Shown piece after piece: positions 68 through 24,179 of a stretch of 64,000 bases of DNA (positions within the stretch are counted from its first letter, which is position 1; every line of letters starts with the position of its first letter). Made by a program: the position numbers and the translations under genes. The notes under the pieces are model-generated. The model searched no databases and was not told where the DNA came from. It saw nothing but the letters and a program-made list of their open reading frames with translations. Origin of the DNA: Pochonia chlamydosporia 170 (lineage: Eukaryota > Ascomycota > Sordariomycetes > Hypocreales > Clavicipitaceae); contig NW_019154049.1 of the NCBI RefSeq assembly GCF_001653235.2, forward strand, positions 186,001-250,000. Direction: 5' to 3'.

Positions 68-1832
68 ATAAGCAGTTACCTTTTTCGAAGCTGAGGTCCC
101 TGTCAATGCTGTACATAACTAGCTCGTGAATACATATTGCACATAACGAATGCGTTGAAAGTCGTCTTTTGTTGCAACTGATACCCTCTTGGAACGTAAC
201 ACCTCACCCTAATCCCTACGTAACGCCTTGCGGAAGCCTCTTTGAGTTAGGTTTCGCATGAATTATCAGGAATGTCGGGTTGTCAAAATTTGGAGGAAGG
301 CAACACGTCCAAAAGATGCACAGCCCCAAGCTGATAATTCTGGTTCGCTATATAGTGCGCGCATTTATCAGTTTGAGCGGCCGAATGATGCGTTGAACTT
401 CATGTCTGCATGTCACAGCCTAGGCTGGCGTCTCGGCTTTTGAGCGTGAGTCAATTCCCCATCCCGCTGCGTCCTCCGACACCCAACTCGGCTCGTCACT
501 GACCCGTTGTCGGGAAGATTATTAGCTGGTAACAATTGCTTCGGCATACGATGATTAGATGACACTTCGCCCTCAAGAACCGCGACGAGCGAAGCTTGTC
601 CAATTGAGCACATGTTGGCATTCAACGCAATTGGCGGGTGACTCCAAACGGCAATCATCGACCGGGCAAAGGGTAATCATACGCTGCTCGTACGATAATC
701 CAGGGGTATGTCAAGGTATTGTGCCTGCGACTCGGCCGTGATTACCAACATGCACCGATTGAAGATATGATGTTGGAAGCCCAACTCCCAAACCCGACGG
801 GTCTATCCAAGGGATTGGCTCGGACTTCGGACCGGACTAGAAGATTTTCAGCAACTCCATCATGACTTACTAATGTAATATAAGATGGACTTTCGGGGTG
901 TTCCAGGAGGCTCAAATTTTGTCAACTCAGCAAAGAAAGACCAAATCGACATGATATTATAAATCTTTGGACAGCAGGATCGGTCTTTAACATGTTGATA
1001 ACGGGCTTTCCGGGTCACCCTCAAGCATTTTTCCAGCATGTGGGTACGGACATTCCGCGGCCAGACGGCCGTTTCAAGGTCAAGTTACGGACTTTGACGG
1101 ACAGTTCCAACCAACCACATTCGCTCTTTGACCGAGACTTCCGCCACAAGTCCGTTCCTCACCCCTTCGACCAACAATGTTCCCACAGCATAACGAAACA
1201 TAACTCGCTGAATCTCCCCTAATGGGGCCAAACATCCTGGTTCCATGCCGTCATAAACCGCACAATGGGTTGTTATGTCCATACATCCGAATCTGAGTCG
1301 AAGAGGACTTGGAGGACTAACAGGCGAAGGATTCCGGTGTTATTGACGGTCAGACAAGAATTCAAGTACCTTTCGCAGTAAGAGCCTATGCAAAAGTACG
1401 AAATTTGCATTACGAGTATCCCATTTTTCGCCGGATCTATCTGCAGCCGAGCGCGTACATCACCTGGCACACCAGTCACAAATCTCGTCAACCTCCAAAA
1501 GACAACTCATGCCCATTTGCAGAGGGCCAAACAACCAACTGCCGCTAGCAGTGGTGGGTGGGTTTAGTTAGTCGGGACGGCGTTGAGCAATAAATGCCGT
1601 CCCGCCATCACGGACAAGAATGTTCAATGATGTTTACATTACTCGTTTTATCATCCAAGATTTCCCCCAACCCATCGTTTGTGATTGTCTTGAAGAAACA
1701 TTCCATAACTAGCATTCATGTCGATCTAAGACATTTCCGAAAATCGTGGCATCCTTGGCGTTTTAGCTCTCGTTGCAACCGAAAAGCAGTGAAACGACTT
1801 GGCCATCGATATAGCCAAAACTAGTCGTCGCA
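68..1832. other. Intergenic region without a recognisable gene
   Basis: About 1.8 kb. Open frames here are all under 95 codons, lack familiar motifs and do not join through plausible introns. The last few hundred bases must hold the promoter of the drug transporter that starts at 1833. I see no RNA gene or repeat. Confidence 0.6.
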
Positions 1833-3644
1833 ATGACGGCATCAAAGACCGCCAGCGGCGGTGAAGAACCCGTGCTTCCCAGCAAAATCCCATATTGGCG
1901 ACTGGTTGTTGACCAAGCTGGTGTAACTCACGATGTCCTGCACCACGCTTATCCAGGCTCTGGCAGCGAAGCCGATCCATATCTTGTGCAATGGATCCCA
2001 AACGACCCCCGAAACCCCATGGGCTTCAGCAACACCAAAAAATGGTTCATCACCATTACCGTGGCCATCGCCACCCTTGCTGTCTCACTAGTTTCTTCAG
2101 CATACACCGGAGGAATTAAGCAAATCATCATGCAGTTTCATATCAGCCAAGAGGTTGCAACTCTCGGTGTTTCATTGTTCGTGCTGGGCTTCGCCATCGG
2201 GCCGCTGCTGTGGGCACCTTTGAGCGAACTGTTTGGTCGACAGATTCTCTTTATCGGGACCTATGCTTGCCTTACAGCCTTTAATGCTGGCTGTGCTGGT
2301 GCTCAGAATATCTGGACGCTGATCATTCTACGATTTTTCGCTGGCGCTTTCGGCTCATCACCTCTCACCAATGCTGGAGGAACCATTGCGGACATGTTTG
2401 AGCCAGCACAGCGAGGTCTGGCGACTGCCATCTTTGCTGCTGCGCCCTTTCTCGGCCCTGTCCTAGGCCCAGTTGCCGGCGGATTCTTGGGCATGAATGC
2501 TGGCTGGCGATGGGTCATGGGCTTGTTGGCTGCTTTCTCCGGGGCTGTCTGGATTCTCGGGAGTCTCCTTGTTCCTGAAACATATGCTCCGGTCCTCCTT
2601 CGCCAACGTGCTGCCAAGTTGTCCAAGATGACTGGCAAACACTACGTCAGCAAGCTTGACCATGATCGGGGCAAAGTAACCCTCGCAGAGTCCTTCAAGA
2701 CGGCACTATCTCGCCCTTGGATCTTACTTTTCAAGGAGCCGATTGTTCTCCTGCTTTCGGTTTACATGGCTATTGTATATGGCACCTTGTACATGCTATT
2801 CGGTGCGTTTCCCATTGTTTATCAGCAACACCGTGGCTGGAACCAAGGCATTGGTGGCTTAGCGTTCCTTGGAATCATGGTGGGAATGATTGCTGCCGTC
2901 GTGTACACCATATTTTCCAACAAGCAGTACATTGAGACGCAGCGCAAGCACGGTGGCCACGCACCGCCGGAGGCCCGTCTACCACCTACACTTATTGGAT
3001 CGATCGCATTACCGGTTGGTTTATTTTGGTTTGCGTGGACAAATTACGCTTCTATTCACTGGATTGTCAGCATTCTCGCTGGAGTACCCTTCGGTTTCGG
3101 CATGGTTCTGGTCTTCTTGAGTATCATGAACTACCTCATTGACTCCTACACCATCTTTGCCGCATCCGTCTTGGCCGCAAATTCTGTTTTACGATCTCTA
3201 TTTGGGGCCGTCTTTCCTCTGTTTACGTCGTACATGTATGAGGATTTGGGCATTCACTGGGCGTCGTCTATCCCAGCATTCCTAGCTCTTGCTTGTGTCC
3301 CATTCCCATTTCTGTTCTACAAGTATGGGGCTTCTATTCGCGCCAAGTGCAAATTCGCAGCCGAATCAGCAGCTTTCATGGAAAAGCTACGCCAGCAAGT
3401 TCCTCCGGAAGCACCCACTGACTCTGAGAAAATTGACGACACCACCAACCACACGGCTGCGGATTTTTCAAGCGATGACGATACCCGCACAGGCGAAGAA
3501 GAGACAACATATGCCCCAGTCAAAGCAACACGATCTCATGCTTCAGGTCATGCTGAAGTGCCCATCGACTCAGCACTGTACGACGGCAACCCGTACGACA
3601 TTGACAGAGTCAACAGCAATCACTCCTTTGCTGCCAACAAATGA
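1833..3644 (+). CDS. MFS drug:H+ antiporter (DHA1-like), 603 aa
   Basis: Probable plasma-membrane proton antiporter of the major facilitator superfamily, exporting small molecules. Single exon. A hydrophilic N-terminus of about 65 residues leads to helix 1 (after NPMGFSNTKKW). Twelve hydrophobic segments follow. The loop 2-3 signature is LSELFGRQ (residues about 128-135), a GPVLGPVAGG motif in helix 5 fits antiporters, and PPEARLPPT follows the central loop. The C-terminal tail (about 100 residues) is acidic and Ser/Thr-rich, as in fungal polyamine/fluconazole-type exporters. The substrate cannot be read from sequence. The ATG at 1833 is the first in frame and gives the usual N-terminal length. 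The neighbours do not suggest a pathway. Confidence 0.9.
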   Translation: MTASKTASGGEEPVLPSKIPYWRLVVDQAGVTHDVLHHAYPGSGSEADPYLVQWIPNDPRNPMGFSNTKKWFITITVAIATLAVSLVSSAYTGGIKQIIMQFHISQEVATLGVSLFVLGFAIGPLLWAPLSELFGRQILFIGTYACLTAFNAGCAGAQNIWTLIILRFFAGAFGSSPLTNAGGTIADMFEPAQRGLATAIFAAAPFLGPVLGPVAGGFLGMNAGWRWVMGLLAAFSGAVWILGSLLVPETYAPVLLRQRAAKLSKMTGKHYVSKLDHDRGKVTLAESFKTALSRPWILLFKEPIVLLLSVYMAIVYGTLYMLFGAFPIVYQQHRGWNQGIGGLAFLGIMVGMIAAVVYTIFSNKQYIETQRKHGGHAPPEARLPPTLIGSIALPVGLFWFAWTNYASIHWIVSILAGVPFGFGMVLVFLSIMNYLIDSYTIFAASVLAANSVLRSLFGAVFPLFTSYMYEDLGIHWASSIPAFLALACVPFPFLFYKYGASIRAKCKFAAESAAFMEKLRQQVPPEAPTDSEKIDDTTNHTAADFSSDDDTRTGEEETTYAPVKATRSHASGHAEVPIDSALYDGNPYDIDRVNSNHSFAANK

Positions 3645-3986
3645 AAGTAATAGACATCACTACGTAATTTCTTAATTTCTTTTACGTCTCAAAAGATGAG
3701 ATAAGGAACACCACTCATACATTGGATTTCGTTGTTTGCCCAATTTGGTCAAAAGGGCGGTACCACATAGACTATAGCATAGCGGGAATAGGACAATAAC
3801 AAGACACATACATATGTGAATTAAATGAACTTATTATTTCAGTGTTCTAATATGTAACTATGAAAGAGAATGTAAATGACTAAATTATCAGGGCCCAATT
3901 CCTATATCGTGGTTCAGCCGACGTGTGCAGACGTATGCAATTAATATCCGCTCATTCATACAGGTCCCGCGTCTCTGTTGCCACAA
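3645..3986. other. Convergent 3' region between transporter and propeller gene
   Basis: AT-rich, 342 bases between two stop codons on opposite strands. It should hold both 3' UTRs. No gene seen. Confidence 0.6.
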
Positions 3987-14076: not shown

Positions 14077-15816
14077 ATGCGGAACGACGAAAAGTTGGGA
14101 CAACCGTCCCCAAACAACACAGAGAATGGGCATAACCCTTCCTATACAAAAGACATGGACGATACCGTACATGTAACCCAGCTGTTGGAAGAGGCCACGC
14201 CCAAATTGTGGACGAAGCGCATGTTTCGTCTTTATGGCATCCTGTTGCTTGGATATCTTTGCATTGTTCTGCAGGGATACGATGGTTCCCTGATGGGTGC
14301 CATCAATGCAATGGTGAGAAAGAATGGAACATAGAACCTCCCTCGTCTAGACACCGCCAGATCGTATCGAGCTCAACTGACTCCTCCTCTAGCCGCAATA
14401 TCAGCAGTTCTTTGGATTGTGAGTCACGCATATTCGTCTCCTTACACCCCACCTCACTCGCTGACCATTTGGGGATATAGGAAATCTGCTGGATCGTCCA
14501 CAGGGTTGGTTTTCGCCATATTCAATATTGGAAGTCTCTCTGCTCTCCCGTTTGCAGGGCCAATCAATGACTACTGCGGCCGACGATGGGGGATAATGGT
14601 GGGATGCGGACTGGTACTCGTGGGAACGTGCATTCAAGCCCCAGCACTCAATTCACGAATGTTCCTTGGAGGTCGTTTCCTCTGTGGATTTGGTCAGGGC
14701 TTCGTCAACGTTTCTGCTCCAACCTTTGTTGCCGAAATGGCCCATCCCCATTGGCGTGGTCCGCTTTCTGGTTTGATGCAGACAAACTACTTTGTCGGGT
14801 CCATTATAGCTAGCTGGGTTACGTATGGGACAGCATTCATCAATGGAGAAGGGTCCTTCCGAATCCCACTGTGGCTCCAGATGGTCAGCTCGGGAATAGT
14901 CTTTTTTGGCATCATGTTCAGTCCCGAGACGCCTCGTTGGCTCATGGCCCACGGCAAAGCCACGCAGGCCGAGCAAGTTCTGGCAGAACTGCATGGTGAG
15001 GGCTCCGTCGACAACCCCTTTGTCAAGCTCCAAATGGCCGAAATGAACTCACAAATCGGCCATGACGGTTCTGATAAGCGTTGGTGGGACTACAGAGACT
15101 TATTCAACACTCACGCCGCCAGGAGACGCATGATATGTGTGGCGGGCATGTCATGGTTTGGCCAATATTCGGGTAATGCTCTCGTCAGCTACTACTTTCC
15201 CGTCATTGTAGCTCAGACCGGCATCACGAACCCGCACACTCAGCTGCTTCTCAATGCGCTGAACCCGGTTGTTTCTTGGTTTGCTGCAATTTCCGGCGCC
15301 ATGCTTCTCGACAGAGTTGGACGCCGTCCCCTGCTTCTTGGCGGTGTATTTGGAATGGCAGTCTGCTTGACTGTAGTCACTGGGTGTACTAAGCTCTCTG
15401 TCGAGACAGCCAACAAAGCGGCGGGCAATGCGGGCATCTTCTTTATCTACTTGTTCAGTGTCATCTTTTCCATCGGACTGGTACCTCTTCTTCCCTTCTA
15501 CATTGCGGAAACGCTTCCAACAGAGACCCGAGCCAAAGGCACAGCCGTTGGAGCCGTCGTCTCCTCCTCCGCATCTATCCTGGGACAATACACAAGTGCG
15601 GTTGCTATTGAGAAGATTGGGTACTACTACTACATTGTGTTTATCGTCTGGGACCTTATCGAGTGTTTAATAATCTACTTTTTCTTTGTGGAAACGAAGA
15701 ACCGCACCCTGGAAGAGATGAATGAGATTTTTGCCTCCCCAAATCCGGTCAAAGCCTCCCTGAAGAAACGAAACACGGCCGAGGTGGTCCAGGAGACGAT
15801 TAAGGGTGTTGACTAG
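14077..15816 (+). CDS. MFS sugar transporter (hexose/lactose-permease type), 532 aa
   Basis: Three exons; introns 14314-14392 and 14419-14480 leave a 26-nt micro-exon, and joining gives 533 codons. Plasma-membrane sugar:H+ symporter family with 12 predicted helices. Motifs: GYDGSLMGAIN in helix 1, DYCGRRWGI in loop 2-3, PETPRWLMAHGK before the central loop, DRVGRRPLL in loop 8-9, and the C-terminal FVETKNRTLEEMNEIF. An upstream in-frame ATG at 13966 exists, but the one at 14077 gives the normal N-terminal length and lies 141 bp after a TATA-like element. Divergent with the aldehyde dehydrogenase. The exact sugar is unknown. Confidence 0.92.
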
Positions 15817-16049: not shown

Positions 16050-17789
16050 CTAAAGCTCTTGTTTGATACCCAAGTTCTCAATATTATGATTCCGCATCCC
16101 TAACTTGTGATGTCCAACTTGAAGAACCTGGTAAAAGCCTTCTGGGTCGACCGAATCCCGCACTTGGTGCAGACGATCGAGGCTCTCTTTTCCGTATGTT
16201 AATAAAGGCTTTTGCTCATCATAAGCATGGCTTAGGAAAAGGAAGGGATGGTATGAATCCATCTTCTTAGCCATTTCTTTAACCCGTATTAACATTCGTT
16301 CCATAAATTGCCTTATTAGAGGAGTATCTTTCAGTCTACTCCAACGCAGACTGATGTTCATAACTATAACAAGCATTAGATAGATTGTGTTGCAAATTTG
16401 TGGAACGATTACCAACTTGTAAGTGGCCCGTCCGTCTCTTTCAAGCCAAGTGCGTTCCCCCCTCTTACTTGCATCTTCTTGATTGTTGCAGTTGTAAGCG
16501 GGTTATACACTAGGAGAACCTTGATTCCCTTAACGCCTCGAATCTTACTGGCTTCTTCCTGGAAAATCTCGGCGGTTTTCATATGAACCTGTGGGTTACC
16601 CTGGACAGTTATAGATCCGAAAATATTGTAGAAGCCAAATTCGTTCACCACGTCCATAACCTCTGCCATCTGAAGGGTTGTTCGTCTATACGCGTATTCT
16701 ATAATAGGACGGATAACTTTCTGCTGAGTTGGGTTCTCATCTGACGGGAGCCTAGAGATCTCTGGTATGTCTGCAGCTAGGGCCACGATCCGATCCGAAA
16801 GGACAAACTCTCGTCGCGCGGCCGACCATCCAAGATTCGTCGCAATCATTTGTATTCCTGGGGGCATTTGATGGGAGAAACGGTCAAGCCTTTGGAACGC
16901 AACTTGCATGTCAACCATGTTCCAGCGCTGGAAGATGTGCGAAGATAGTCCTCGAGAAAAAACCTCCAGTGTAACACTAGTAACGATCCCAAAGTTTGGT
17001 CCACCGCCTCTAAGGGCCCAGAAAAGATCTGTGTTCGAAGTCTGACTAGCCCGGATAGCAGAGCTATTGGCAAGGACAACTTCGAATTCCAGCACATTAT
17101 CACATATCCATCCACGGCTATGCGAGAAAAACGAGATTCCGCCTTGGGAAAGGACAGTTAACTTCCTGACTGGGTGTGGACGAGGTACAGAGACTTACCG
17201 CCTAAAATAGAGCCAACAACCCCAGTTAGGCTATTACGAGTTCCTACAGCTGACAGATTACGAGGATCTAATTCCCGATACACATCAGCCCATATGGCTC
17301 CTCCTCCCACATTGAGGGTAGGTGTGTCGCCTTGCACGAACTCGACTTTGTTCATGCGGCCCAAGTCAACCGTAACACCATCCCGGACATTTGACGCTTC
17401 TAGAAACGGCGATGTACCGCCGCCAAGTACGGCAAACTTGCAATTTTCTTTGCGCAAGACTGTGATTATATCTGAGATTTCTGGAGTGCTTGTAGGCTGC
17501 ACTCTGCATCGTGGTATAACTTGAGACTGGAACAAGGACCAGAGGTTCTTTTTTGCGTCTTTCCCACGAAATGTGCGATCTGGGAGGATAGAGTAGATCT
17601 CTTCACACTATCGTTTATTGCATTTAGCTGACGGTCGGTCTCTCTTTGTTTCTCAATATGCTGCAAGCAGTCACTCACCGCTCTTATAGAACTGCTAGAG
17701 TTCTGGCCTTCCAATCCCGTTTGGTCAGCCGAAAGTATTTGAATAGTGGTAAGTAAGGAAATGATAGAGGAAGATACACTAAAAGGCAT
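16050..17789 (-). CDS. Secreted FAD-linked oxidoreductase (BBE/FAD_binding_4 family), 516 aa
   Basis: Four exons; introns 17608-17678, 17143-17198 and 16351-16412; phases close to 517 codons. The start at 17789 gives a hydrophobic signal sequence ([16 protein letters not shown]). The FAD_binding_4 domain runs from about residue 66 ([11 protein letters not shown]) through [26 protein letters not shown] and [19 protein letters not shown]. The C-terminal berberine-bridge segment (RVRDSVDP-like, [12 protein letters not shown]) is present. The histidine that usually binds FAD covalently in GGH motifs is Thr102 here (LGGGTSPF), and no Cys sits at the second covalent position, so flavin is probably held non-covalently or singly. 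BBE enzymes oxidise alcohols, amines and C-H bonds in fungal secondary metabolism. First gene on the left of the UstYa block, so a tailoring role is likely. The last intron's acceptor is the least certain part. Confidence 0.85.
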
Positions 17790-18367
17790 TTTTGTCAACC
17801 TAATTTATAGTCCTGGGACAAGAATTAGAGGAGCAATAGATGTCTAAGATATGGGATACCTTCGGCTACTTATTCTCAGTAAGATTGTAAATAACCCGTA
17901 TGCGTTAATAGCGTGCATGCATATAAACGTGGCTTAACTAGATATTACGTATGTACGCATACTGCAGTCCGTAGAAAGCTTAACATGGTAAGCTTTCTCT
18001 GTCTTCTTTTAAACCCCAAGACAACAAGGTAACAAAAGGAGTTAGCCATTGCGTTAAGACTACTATACGATATACAAGTAGCGTTCTATAATTTATAGAT
18101 TGGCATACGTTAAGGTCCCACGAGGAGCCATGCTAGTACTACTACGGAAGACATTAATTTACGTCTAATGCGCTATACTAACTGGTTAACTCATATCTAC
18201 CCTTCTTTTGCTGGTAGCTCTACGCGTTTATCACGTCTTTGCATTCTAATTAGGCTAGCGAACAAATTCTACTCTCCATCTGCAAAAATAGTAGGACTAC
18301 GATCATCTGTGGCACCGATTTTACTACTCTCGCCCTGGTGATAAGAGACGCCTTCAGCGAGCACTTG
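17790..18367. other. AT-rich spacer in the UstYa block
   Basis: 578 bases, visibly AT-rich. Contains a 10-bp inverted repeat (17973-17998) about 185 bp upstream of the FAD oxidoreductase start. A minus-strand 34-codon frame (17945-18049) was examined and not accepted. No gene supported. Confidence 0.5.
17973..17998. repeat. Perfect inverted repeat with 10-bp arms around AAGCTTA
   Basis: Arms 17973-17982 and 17989-17998 (AGAAAGCTTA / TAAGCTTTCT) with a 6-nt spacer ACATGG, upstream of the FAD oxidoreductase gene on the minus strand. It shares the AAGCTTA core with 6697-6717 and with the palindrome at 19506-19520. Confidence 0.55.
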
Positions 18368-19424
18368 TTAGTTACTTCCAAGAGATACTAGATCAAAGTT
18401 AGGCGTACCGTAAACAGGGTGTGTTAGTATTCCAGGCTTCGAAGCATCAACGCGACGTTTGCGCGCCCACGAATTGATCAAGTCAAAATTAACGCACTCA
18501 TGCTCCTGTGTGAAGTCTGCTCGGGGACGAGGACTATCCCGGGACCACTGAAGAGTGAATAGAGAGACATCTGCGCGGCACATTGTTGCCTGCCGCAAAA
18601 TCTCAATGCAGTGGTCTGTTGTTACCTCTGTTAACAATTTTTGTATTGCATCAACAGTGGGAATAGTAAACCTACCAGAGTGTTGCCGGTTTAACCGCTC
18701 TTCTTCGGATGTCGCGTTTGGAAAGTAGTGTTCTTTCCACGTATATTGCCTGAGCCGTTTCTTCGCAGGACAAATATTATTAGACACTTTCTTGAACTTG
18801 GAATACAGAAGTTGTCAACTCACGATACAGTGCAACTCGTGAAAGACGCTCAATCCAGCAAAATAGAGCCCGTTCGTATTAGGTATTGGAATAGATCTTG
18901 ATCCAATTCGTTCAAGGTCAGACCTCGGAACAGCAATGTTCATGTCTTGCATCTTTCAGCTAGAGGAACTCAAATACATTACATCGTCACTTACTGTCGA
19001 GAAGATCTGCCCATGCGCGTTCGAGTTTATCACTTGGTGGCCCATAGTAAGGACTGTCAATGATAAGTGTCGCATTAAAGCGTGTCGCTTGGTACTTGAC
19101 GACACCTTGGGCGGGTGCTGTAATTAGGCTTGCTTCGTTAGCCCTCTCTAGTTTCATGGGTAACTAGTGACTTAGGTTCATAGTAGGAGAAAGAGGTGCT
19201 TTACAATAAATTGTATGATTCTTCCGGATAGCGAAGAAAACTGTAGTGTATAGACTAATAAAGAATACTTGAAGAACAAGAAAGCTAACGTAGCTAGGCT
19301 GCAGCTCGCGCGCCAGTATCCGAGAATGTATTGTATTTAAAGGCTTTTTTAATACAATTTTGGAGTCAGCTAAGAAAGGCTCATCCTCATGAGTGTTGTC
19401 ATCGACGTCATGAGATAAGGACAT
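18368..19424 (-). CDS. UstYa-family (DUF3328) oxidase, copy 1, 265 aa
   Basis: Five exons; introns 19118-19204, 18946-18994, 18761-18823 and 18616-18675; joined phases close to 266 codons. Type II membrane topology: an acidic N-terminal tail, then one transmembrane segment (residues about 45-66). After it come the family marks YSPAQ, SPYYGPPSDKLERAW and GLSVFHELHC. The two HxxHC motifs that define UstYa proteins are HELHC (150-154) and HSDHC (182-186), followed by IEILRQATMC and a DFTQEHECVNFDLINSW tail. UstYa proteins catalyse oxidative macrocyclisation of ribosomal peptides in ustiloxin-type pathways, and other oxidations elsewhere. Divergent from copy 2 and 2.4 kb from the candidate precursor gene. 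Confidence 0.9.
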
Positions 19425-20308: not shown

Positions 20309-21231
20309 ATGTCGACCGAATACATTCAAGTACGGCAGGATGATGAATATATCAACGGAGTTGCTCTTACCTGCCCACCACCAGCTGTCCAGAGGCGGAG
20401 CAGGGTTATGACAGTGCTACCATGGTCGCTGGTTGCTCTAGCTTTGGCGTTCTACACGCTAATTATCTTCTCAAAAGTCTTTTCAAAAACTTGCTGGCTA
20501 TCTTCTGGTGGTAAGTGTAAATAATGCCAGGACTTCAAGTTTGGTAACTAATTATCTAGAAAATCCTCTTAACGCGCCTATCCAGTGGGAAGAGCGTAAG
20601 TGACCACAAGATTTCATACCACATCAAGTCATACAAGCAGCCCTTACAGTTATGGCTTAGGAACCTATTTAACAAATATCAAAACCGGCGTGTTTGACCC
20701 ATATTCTACGGCGAATCCAAACGTTGAAGAAGCTTGGAAAGCACTTATCGACACACATATTACCACGATAACAGAAGAAGAGAAGCAAAACCTCCCGGGT
20801 CACAGGAACACTGCCAGAGCATACGGCAACGAGCCCGGTTATGCCGTTTTGATTGAAGTCTTCCACCAGCTACACTGTCTGGTAGGTGCCCGATCTAATC
20901 GTAATGTTATGTGAGAAGATAACTTGCACTAACTTACTGCTATAACAAACAGAACGCTATACGAAAGAGTTATTACAGTGGAAATAAAACTGACGATAAT
21001 CGTGGTTTTAGCGAACCAGGGGGGCACTCAGACCATTGCTTTAGCTATTTGCTGCAAACCCTCCTTTGCCATGCAGATGTCGGCGTTATGACCACGATGT
21101 GGAATACTCGAGCGCATGTTTTTATGGCCGACTTCAACGTGACCAAGCAGTGCCGCAACTACGACTTGATCAAATCCTGGGCTCAGACTCGAAAGGCCAA
21201 GTTTAGTCCACCACCTAGAGTATCCATGTAA
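20309..21231 (+). CDS. UstYa-family (DUF3328) oxidase, copy 2, 245 aa
   Basis: Four exons; introns 20511-20559, 20596-20660 and 20882-20952; phases close to 246 codons. A cytoplasmic N-terminus, one transmembrane helix (about 35-55), then a lumenal catalytic domain. HxxHC motifs: HQLHC (148-152) and HSDHC (178-182), the latter followed by FSYLLQTLLCHADV and a DFNVTKQCRNYDLIKSW tail. Between the motifs is NAIRKSYYSGN. The 36-nt second exon and the acceptor at 20660 were chosen because earlier AG dinucleotides leave the frame; this is the weakest junction. The start at 20309 is a true ATG. The gene ends 557 bp before the stop of the minus-strand precursor candidate, so the two converge. Confidence 0.88.
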
Positions 21232-21787: not shown

Positions 21788-21904
21788 CTAGCAGCTAGTA
21801 TCATAGTAATTGTCTTGGTCGCGCTTGGCGCAGATGCCGGGCAAGGGAGCGGCTAAGGCTCCTAGAGCGAGAACGACAATAGCGACAATCTCAGCAGCAA
21901 GCAT
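21788..21904 (-). CDS. Candidate RiPP precursor peptide, 38 aa, single C-terminal core
   Basis: A 38-codon gene, ATG at 21902-21904 and TAG at 21788-21790. Residues 1-19 form a hydrophobic secretion signal ending in LGALAA, with the expected small residues before a likely cleavage near residue 18-19. A short spacer (APLPGICA) leads to Lys27-Arg28, a Kex2-type site. The C-terminus after it is DQDNYYDTSC. Signal peptide, dibasic site and a short Tyr-containing core are the layout of fungal dikaritin-type RiPP precursors, whose cores are oxidised by UstYa proteins; three UstYa genes lie within 3 kb. Known precursors usually carry several core repeats; this one has one. Codon use is GC-richer than the AT-rich DNA around it, which supports coding. 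Translation, processing and product are unproven. Confidence 0.72.
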   Translation of the reverse strand: MLAAEIVAIVVLALGALAAPLPGICAKRDQDNYYDTSC

Positions 21905-23191
21905 GTTGGAAAAAAGCGTAATAGAGTTTATAAAGTCTAGACTTCGAGTACCAAAAAGCAAAGACGTGAAAAGGTAAAGACGTGTAAGATTAGGGGGAAA
22001 GATTTAGCAACTTAAGCTAGAGGTAACAACGCTTATTTATTCTGGCGGCCAGCCAAGAGCCTATCTACTTGGAATACTCTAGAACGTCAGTTAAGAGTAA
22101 TGTGAGGGGGTGAAGCAACTTGGGAGCCCTGCAAACAGAGTATCACGCGATCATCTTAAGGTACTTTATGGTACTTACAGTTCTAACACATGTCAACTAT
22201 GTTGCAGTAGAAGGGAGACGATTTGTAATAACACCTATATTTTAAATTAATAAATTAAAGGAGATGTGACTTATCACGTTTCTAAAACGGAAATATTACA
22301 CTAATGCCTAGCAGTGTGTGTATTGTGTTTTTTTTTCTCCCTTGCAGTCTATTATCTGTACTTGTTTAATAACTTTACCTTATTCCTATCTAATATATAT
22401 ATCACGTTTTACTATCGTAGAATATATAACTAACTAATATATATTCGCTTCTTAATAATAGTTAGCAAGGTTGTTAGACAGATAACGGTTAATACACTAT
22501 TCTTCTTAGATAAAACTATAAATAGTTAGAAGAAAGTAGCTTTGCGAATTCTAGCAGAAAATTTTAACAATATAATGCAATAGCCACCAAACCTATTGTT
22601 TTCCCTCATAAGGTGACGCAAACTGAGACAGTAGGCCCACAGGTGGTACTATGTAGGCAATATACCAAAAGGTTAGTGGTGAAGAAATAGAAAAGCATAA
22701 TCTCGGATACTCCAAACAGGCCTGTGGCATGCGCTCGCACTGATAACTCAGAAACTGTTTATGGAGCCCAGCTAATCCTAACCTGCTCTCACACGATAGC
22801 GGGCACATATAGCATGATTTGATGATAACTGAAGGTTACTACCGAAGTCCTTGATTCCTTACAAATGAGACCAACGGTGAGGACGCGCCTTTTCTGAGCT
22901 CGGGCTCCCTTCCCATGAGCTAGGGAGTGCTGCATCAATTATCCGAGCTCAACCTCGCGGCTCCCCTGCTCAGTCATGCCTGTGTGCAACACATGCAATT
23001 CAGCCGCCAACGGGGCAGCCAAAACAATACGGCGTGTCCAATGCATTGAGAAAATGGGAATAGTCTTCAGAACGTACCACTGGCACGGTTGATTGTAGTG
23101 TCTGTTTGTACCCAAACAAGCGGCTATATTTCCCGTATTTTAGGGTTCTACATGTTTATTATGCACCTGTTAACAGGTGGAAGACACTATC
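21905..23191. other. AT-rich spacer with precursor promoter and UstYa copy 3 promoter
   Basis: 1.3 kb. The left part (to about 22580) is extremely TA-rich and looks RIP-like. It includes TTTATAAA at 21927-21934 and CTTAAGCT at 22011-22018 upstream of the precursor. The right part returns to ordinary composition and ends with the palindrome at 23164-23179. A 72-codon minus frame at 22593-22808 has no recognised motif. Confidence 0.5.
23164..23179. promoter_or_regulatory. 16-bp perfect palindrome CACCTGTTAACAGGTG
   Basis: Two inverted E-box-like hexamers (CACCTG/CAGGTG) around TTAA, 12 bp before the ATG of UstYa copy 3. This may lie in the promoter or 5' UTR; it could be a dimer-binding site or an mRNA hairpin. 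Function inferred only. Confidence 0.45.
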
Positions 23192-24179
23192 ATGACTGAC
23201 AAAGACAGTTACAGCTCTAGTTTATCCAGAGACGCAAGCGACGATAATAGTCAAGCTTGCTCAGAAGAATTGCCATTTATCCCGCTAGACTCACGGCCGC
23301 AACGCAAAGAAAGAAACTATATTCTTGTGCTATGTCTACTTGAGCTAATACAACTTGTTGTTTTTGGGCTGGCCTTTGGATTACGGAAGCCAACGGAAGG
23401 ATGCCACAAACAATGGCCAGATGTGAACGGCTGTAAGTGACTCTCTTATTCCAAACACTAGGAGAAAGACACTTGTTTATTAAATTTGTTTGCAAACTAA
23501 TCCTTCGCGACAGATTCTTCTTTATCCGCGTATAACAAGACGGTAACCTACAGCAACGATCTCCATCTAGTAGAGCCTTCCAATTTTGGCGACCACTTCT
23601 GGAATACGTTTATGCCGAGTAAGTACTCTACAGACGATAGCACAGAAGCCTTGCAAGCAGACTAAATTAGCTTCCAGATTCAGCTGTGGTCGCTATTGCG
23701 ACGGACGTGGTGAAATCCCAAGGCATTCCTGAGTCTGCCGTATCTCCCACCAATTCAAACGTGATGCTCTACCAGATCGACGGTTTCCACGAACTACACT
23801 GCTTGGTACGTAAATATACCAGATCGCCTTCCGACGAGTGTAGATCACGTCTGACAGAATACAGTGGCGCCTTCGTAGACTTCTTATTGGTACCGCCACG
23901 CGAACGGATCATACGCATACGTTGCACTGTCTTAATTACATCAGGCAGACACTAATGTGCAATCTTGATCTGACGCTGGGAAGCACCACCGACTATGAGA
24001 ACTATGGACTTCATGACAAGCGTGTCTGCCGAGACTACGAAGCAATTTTCGCGTGGACAGAACGTAACAGTTGGAAAGACTTTGAGCCGTATCAAGATAT
24101 GAAGACGGAGCACCACAAGGCGAAGTTGAAGTCACTTAACGCTACTGTAGATCCGGACTACAAATCCCCATATGTCTAA
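23192..24179 (+). CDS. UstYa-family (DUF3328) oxidase, copy 3, 262 aa
   Basis: Four exons; introns 23433-23513, 23619-23677 and 23806-23864; phases close to 263 codons. The first real ATG is 23192 (the frame extends 5 codons upstream without an ATG). A Ser/Asp-rich cytoplasmic tail is followed by one transmembrane helix (about 43-63). HxxHC motifs: HELHC (153-157) and HTLHC (176-180), then LNYIRQTLMC and KRVCRDYEAIFAWTERN. The spacing between the two motifs (18 residues) is shorter than in copies 1 and 2 (about 26-27), and its YSSLSAYN segment differs, so it is probably a distinct subfamily rather than a recent duplicate. A long charged C-terminal tail follows. Likely role: oxidation of the ribosomal peptide. 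Confidence 0.88.

Follow-up and report, generated by a model that had tools for sequence, protein, structure and literature searches.

A candidate one-core peptide precursor gene among UstYa genes of Pochonia chlamydosporia

The UstYa genes and their neighbours

The DNA analysed (the window) is a stretch of 64,000 nucleotides on contig C14 (352,858 bases) of the Pochonia chlamydosporia 170 genome, which has a size of 44.2 Mb in 49 contigs. It contains three UstYa genes and a short minus-strand frame, at 21788-21904, that sits between UstYa-B and UstYa-C. The initial annotation had placed all three genes within 3 kb of this frame. The spliced models confirm this, as each carries a PF11807 match and lies within 2.4 kb of the frame, with nearest ends 2,363 bp (UstYa-A), 556 bp (UstYa-B) and 1,287 bp (UstYa-C) away. 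All three genes carry short introns in these models. UstYa-A (18368-19424, minus strand) encodes 265 aa in five exons (19424-19205, 19117-18995, 18945-18824, 18760-18676 and 18615-18368); its PF11807 score of 170 bits comes from an earlier 285-aa model, and its first intron was picked from several options. UstYa-B (20309-21231, plus strand, 224 aa) matches PF11807 with 135 bits and has an uncertain first intron. UstYa-C (23192-24179, plus strand, 262 aa) scores 77 bits in a model that was ranked third, the top-ranked model adding an intron near the 3' end. No solved structure resembling UstYa-B was found (best E 0.37).

Two HXXHC motifs are present in each of the three spliced proteins. A form of UstYa-A without the first His of the second motif was considered and rejected, since an alignment with its relatives indicated an unspliced 60-base intron. 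This intron is still included in the 285-aa model of UstYa-A used for the Pfam match and the alignment, and in the 212-aa part used to search for relatives. Of the 192 candidates in that search, 24 qualified as relatives (E <= 0.001), the best being from Pestalotiopsis fici with 69% identity. For UstYa-C there were 2 relatives among 212 candidates, the best from Seiridium cardinale with 64% identity. No named species is common to the 24 relatives of UstYa-A and the 2 of UstYa-C, which argues against an old and fixed three-enzyme cluster. Judging from these distributions, the three enzymes need not form one old cluster, and a young or rare cluster is possible.

A FAD-linked oxidase gene lies beyond UstYa-A (16050-17789, minus strand, with PF01565 on 17161-17607) and its membership of the cluster is uncertain. 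A luciferase-like monooxygenase gene, whose best NCBIfam match (NtaA/DmoA) falls below the cut-off, is convergent with UstYa-C and probably has no part in the cluster. The window also has an MFS gene at 1815-3641 and another, of the sugar porter type, at 14335-15813; both are tied to the frame by position only. None of the 5 tyrosinase matches in the genome is on contig C14, a Pfam scan of 30 proteins or fragments from the window detected no methyltransferase, and a tRNA scan gave 0 hits. Tailoring of a nonribosomal peptide synthetase (NRPS) product by the UstYa enzymes was also considered and rejected, as none of the 71 condensation domain matches in the genome lies on contig C14.

The precursor frame

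Direct translation of the minus-strand frame at 21788-21904 gives MLAAEIVAIVVLALGALAAPLPGICAKRDQDNYYDTSC followed by a stop codon. The initial annotation had described a frame of 38 aa with Lys27-Arg28 and a C-terminal decapeptide DQDNYYDTSC, and the translation bears this out. The coordinates of this 38-codon candidate precursor include the stop codon, and the evidence for it comes from the translation, a second sequence (P0002, below), GC content and codon usage. Residues 1-19 (21848-21904) resemble a signal peptide by a rule that combines hydropathy with small residues. The mean hydropathy of 3.24 agrees with the secretion signal claimed earlier, and the predicted signal would be cut at about residues 16-19. 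Lys27-Arg28 (21821-21826), a Kex2-type site, directly precedes the Tyr-containing core DQDNYYDTSC (residues 29-38, 21791-21820), which is unique in the genome. Apart from the window's own copy, a protein search revealed no second precursor in the genome, and a degenerate pattern for Arg28-Thr36, allowing <=2 mismatches, matched only the window in the whole genome.

The frame has a GC content of 0.54, compared with 0.33 downstream and 0.41 upstream (300 bases on each side). Its synonymous codons are closer to those of 13 long ORFs of the window (P of a value as low = 0.32) than to the composition of the flanks (P of a value as high = 0.009). By its contrast with the flanks in GC and codons, the 38-aa frame looks coding.

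A TATAAA on the minus strand (21927-21932), 23-28 bases upstream of the ATG, is weak and may be a chance occurrence, as the window holds 22 copies. No 10-mer promoter word was found to be shared with the upstream region of the frame, and the one shared 9-mer resembles a splice donor. The sequence AAAGACGTG occurs twice, 16 bases apart, at 21960-21984 upstream of the frame, which could be chance. A third window copy is located at 18232, antisense, just past the 3' end of UstYa-A.

A second sequence and the question of chance

The question had been raised whether relatives of the frame keep the signal and the site with its core. A search of ~5.8 billion proteins, in which the query was the frame plus two upstream codons, returned one relative, P0002, a protein of 38 aa from a contig of 41,903 bases with the source label lgn. 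P0002 is identical at 36 of 38 positions and the only changes are at Ala4-Glu5, which are replaced by Val-Lys. The Lys-Arg, the decapeptide and the length of 38 are all retained. Agreement of this kind supports the frame and disfavours a recent truncation. None of the UstYa-A relatives lies on a contig of 41,903 bases, though exons that were called as short proteins could miss the length limit of that search.

An open frame of this kind could also arise by chance, and two filters bear on this explanation. The loose filter accepted signal-like ORFs of <=80 aa with [KR]R and a Tyr in a short tail. When 60 windows of 64 kb were shuffled at order 1, it gave 24 matches. Real DNA gave a total of 7, of which 2 are in the window (the precursor frame and 1594-1824) and 5 in 26 other UstYa loci of the genome. 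Frames that pass the loose filter are not rare by chance, and these matches speak for a chance origin. The strict filter accepted ORFs of <=60 aa with exactly KR and a mean hydropathy above a threshold, and was run on 150 order-2 Markov windows. The expectation per 64 kb was 0.14 at a threshold of >=2.0 and 0.02 at >=2.5, and there were no matches in the 150 windows at >=3.0, where a [KR]R variant gave 1 match in 150. Applied to 324 kb of real DNA (the window and the 26 loci of 10 kb each), the strict KR filter passed two ORFs at >=2.0, the precursor frame and a two-core candidate at locus L030, and the precursor frame alone at >=3.0. The frame's hydropathy of 3.24 was already known when the thresholds were chosen, so that the result is not a blind test. 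With this limit, the strict filter stands against a chance origin, as do the GC and codon contrast with the flanks and the existence of P0002. That the frame is open by chance is very unlikely.

One core or part of a larger gene

Precursors of UstYa substrates are commonly recognised by their repeats. The window holds 2 repeated hexapeptides, one antisense to UstYa-B and one near 51 kb, against a chance mean of 4.4 (20 samples), so repeats are at chance level. The first, STVITL, occurs antisense to UstYa-B at 20401-20418 and 20965-20982. The 5.8-kb UstYa interval has 1 repeated hexapeptide against a chance mean of 0.33 (100 samples). Since no repeats above chance occur in the window, the search of the locus leaves the 38-codon frame as its sole candidate substrate.

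The frame might belong to a gene with further exons, in which case the true product would be different. Two other UstYa loci of this genome, L010 and L018, illustrate the problem, as first exons of intron-split multi-core genes there mimic one-core ORFs. There are three poor GT sites within the signal region of the present frame and a GTAAGA begins 4 bases past its stop codon, and both could serve a longer gene. However, the stretch from the Lys-Arg codons to the stop has neither a GT donor nor a GC[AG][AT]G donor, and the next GT comes at +121. The lack of a GT from Lys-Arg to stop indicates that the single core did not arise as a first-exon artefact like those at L010 and L018. Furthermore, no core-like stretch was seen by eye in the three frames over 500 bases downstream, and the ends called for P0002 are the same, though the calling method is unspecified. 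A gene with further exons is very unlikely.

It is also conceivable that the frame once encoded a precursor with several cores and is what decay has left of it. The AT-rich flanks would fit such a history, and multi-core candidates are common at the UstYa loci of this genome. A remnant would not be expected to share its stop and its length with P0002, though, and a second unit downstream was not found; little probability, slightly below that of further exons, is left for decay.

Comparison with known systems

The nearest chemical parallel is asperipin-2a. Its core is FYYTGY, with ether links from Tyr side chains, and its four-gene cluster is described as having one UstYa homolog, with no tyrosinase listed (PMC6514808). 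Precursor and UstYa genes of asperipin-2a have been expressed together in a laboratory Aspergillus oryzae host (PMC6514808). The present locus resembles that of asperipin-2a (AprA/AprY) in the Kex2-type site, the adjacent Tyr residues, the UstYa neighbour and the lack of a tyrosinase (PMC6514808). It differs in that AprA is described as a repeat precursor (PMC7329392), whereas the frame has one core with a C-terminal Cys, three UstYa genes nearby and core letters that are unrelated. The ustiloxin precursor UstA likewise shares a signal-like N-terminus, Lys-Arg and UstYa neighbours with the frame. According to the same account, however, UstA has 16 YAIG cores and the tyrosinase UstQ is needed (PMC6514808), while here there is one core and no tyrosinase match on the contig.

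Closer in layout are the candidates at three other UstYa loci of this genome. L011, L016 and L030 also have short precursors with a signal, a Lys-Arg and a short C-terminal unit, and an UstYa gene within ~4 kb. Unlike the frame, they have two near-identical units, and their cores are unrelated to DQDNYYDTSC. To our knowledge the core DQDNYYDTSC is not pheromone-like. Alpha-pheromone precursors are similar to the frame in that they are secreted (predicted here), cut by Kex2 and can have a copy number of one (PMC6339444), but they are reported as a rule to have no UstYa neighbour (PMC7329392). The single core had been presented as setting the frame apart from known members, and it is less isolated than claimed, given the two-core candidates at other UstYa loci here and the one-copy alpha pheromones described in PMC6339444.

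How the frame should be classified depends on the definition that is used. DUF3328/UstYa has been treated as the class-defining enzyme of the dikaritins in a wide sense, or ust-RiPS (PMC12048977), and at this locus UstYa genes with two HXXHC motifs adjoin a frame that has a Kex2-type site before a Tyr core, as a wide-sense dikaritin would. The strict definition, which PMC12048977 cites from Ding et al., comprises five genes; the repeated cores and the tyrosinase gene that it calls for are not found here. It also includes a methyltransferase gene, of which the Pfam scan showed none among its 30 proteins or fragments, and a transporter or peptidase gene, for which the two MFS genes were noted. 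Surveys of Kex2-processed repeat proteins (KEPs) demand >=3 repeats (PMC7329392, PMC6339444), so that a precursor with one core is not a KEP by definition. In its mode of action the precursor is probably dikaritin-like, but it is filed neither as a strict dikaritin nor as a KEP.

Precedent for a single core is available in prediction. One source raises a single core peptide as a possibility for two UstYa clans, with none demonstrated in that account (PMC12048977). A predicted Trichoderma precursor of 109 aa, found by another route, has only one KK site, and a single core is predicted in it (PMC7099791), and a one-core fungal candidate is therefore not without precedent. In the open literature that was available we found no experimentally shown one-core UstYa precursor, which does not establish that there is none.

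A proposed pathway and its main alternative

We consider it fairly probable, from the sequence evidence taken together, that the frame is the gene for a one-core, Kex2-released and UstYa-modified secreted peptide precursor. If it is expressed, as we infer, the hydrophobic N-terminus would send the 38-mer into the secretory pathway, where a Kex2-type protease could cut after Lys27-Arg28 and free DQDNYYDTSC. The stop codon directly follows the core, so that no second cut would be needed. By analogy with ustiloxin and asperipin-2a, at least one of the three UstYa oxidases may then link the side chain of a Tyr to a second residue within the decapeptide, and the presumed cross-linked product would be exported. 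The computed [M+H]+ of the core is 1223.416 in linear form, 1221.400 after loss of 2 H and 1219.384 after loss of 4 H, values that would change with trimming or other modifications.

The dikaritin-type reading of the initial annotation is partly supported, by the frame itself, its signal-like N-terminus, the Lys-Arg, the UstYa motifs, P0002, the codons and a scan of the locus that found no repeat precursor. The part that fares less well is the trio of enzymes as a unit, since the UstYa-A and UstYa-C relatives are from disjoint named species. The Kex2-type P_proprotein domain has 6 matches in the genome, which was counted in favour of a Kex2-released peptide. Repeats close to DUF3328 genes contain Tyr more often (65.6% against 38.2%; PMC7329392), and this enrichment was counted in favour of an UstYa substrate. 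The matches to the loose filter, the lack of a tyrosinase match on the contig, the disjoint named species and the fact that no UstYa-A relative was on a contig as long as that of P0002 were counted against the main reading. Two of the P_proprotein matches, at C12:363188-363500 and C15:14343-14655, have equal scores and reflect either a duplication or overlapping contigs.

A real secreted peptide that is cut by Kex2 need not be a substrate of UstYa enzymes. It could, for example, be a signalling peptide, with the UstYa enzymes acting elsewhere. Among Kex2-processed repeat proteins, 6120 of 7878 are reported to have no DUF3328 neighbour (PMC7329392), and the failure of UstYa-A and UstYa-C relatives to appear in the same named species would also be in keeping with enzymes that serve other substrates. 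Such a role is nevertheless unlikely, as the frame lies between UstYa-B and UstYa-C, its core has adjacent Tyr residues, no further precursor candidate was found at the locus, and its contig has no NRPS condensation domain (0 of 71).

If the frame is an UstYa substrate, it might represent a minimal class of UstYa-RiPPs in whose precursors a signal peptide is followed by just one Lys-Arg and a single C-terminal core of ~10 residues, and which length cut-offs and repeat surveys would miss. In the present case a single decapeptide, with its adjacent Tyr residues and C-terminal Cys, would be the substrate of three UstYa oxidases, and a Tyr-Tyr or a Tyr-Cys bridge could possibly form. This extension is put forward tentatively and is on the doubtful side. 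We are not familiar with a Tyr-Tyr or Tyr-Cys bridge in the UstYa-type peptide family.

The one-core layout and other UstYa loci of the genome

Substrate searches for UstYa enzymes have leaned on repeats, with >=3 copies demanded in two large surveys (PMC7329392, PMC6339444), and would skip the one-core layout. The present locus offers a concrete one-core candidate whose frame is backed by a second sequence. If the proposed reading is true, one-core precursors could account for part of the UstYa clusters without a known substrate. A simple one-core rule would meet a trap in genes such as those at L010 and L018, where the first exon of an intron-split multi-core gene passes for a one-core ORF.

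PF11807 has 48 matches in the genome, 5 of which are in the window; the other 43 were gathered into 26 loci of 10 kb each. Repeat-type precursor candidates with >=2 units, judged by eye from repeat scans, are present at 11 of the 26 loci (L010, L011, L012, L013, L014, L015, L016, L018, L021, L029 and L030), which suggests that this genome uses such substrates and was counted in favour of the main reading. The other 15 loci have no recognised repeat, a figure to be read with the fact that the scans can miss diverged, distant and one-core genes and that most weak rows were not viewed. The rows dropped from the count were those of L024, L017, L019, L020, L025, L026, L027, L028 and L035 and the secondary rows of counted loci; among the dropped loci, L019 and L027 alone were viewed.

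The number and boundaries of the units vary. There are two units in the candidates at L011, L016, L030 and L015, five at L029 and six at L012. The candidate at L013 has a HHQGAK motif, and no signal exon was found at L015. KYEPL/V occurs four times at L014:6450-7200 and LVHNSW four times at L021:6850-7700, both on the plus strand and beside UstYa genes. The units at these two loci are bounded by a single Arg and not by dibasic sites, and a rule based on Kex2 alone would miss both.

Introns also hide repeats. At L010:1013-1630 (plus strand; G000:C5:4003013-4003630) the model of the candidate gene has four WVNYITYD units, each of which is followed by an intron. The visible ORF of 62 aa is exon 1 only, and the repeat can be seen in no single open frame. 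L018 has five or more GRRYTV units, which are distributed among three frames of its minus strand (~2,900-3,750 in locus coordinates); it also appears to be intron-split, with a signal-like first exon.

Elsewhere in the genome, condensation matches lie in two very long frames, C1:412450-439923 (minus strand, 10,062 aa) and C1:467923-495369 (plus strand, 10,009 aa). An UstYa match is located at C1:500375, ~5 kb past the second of these frames.
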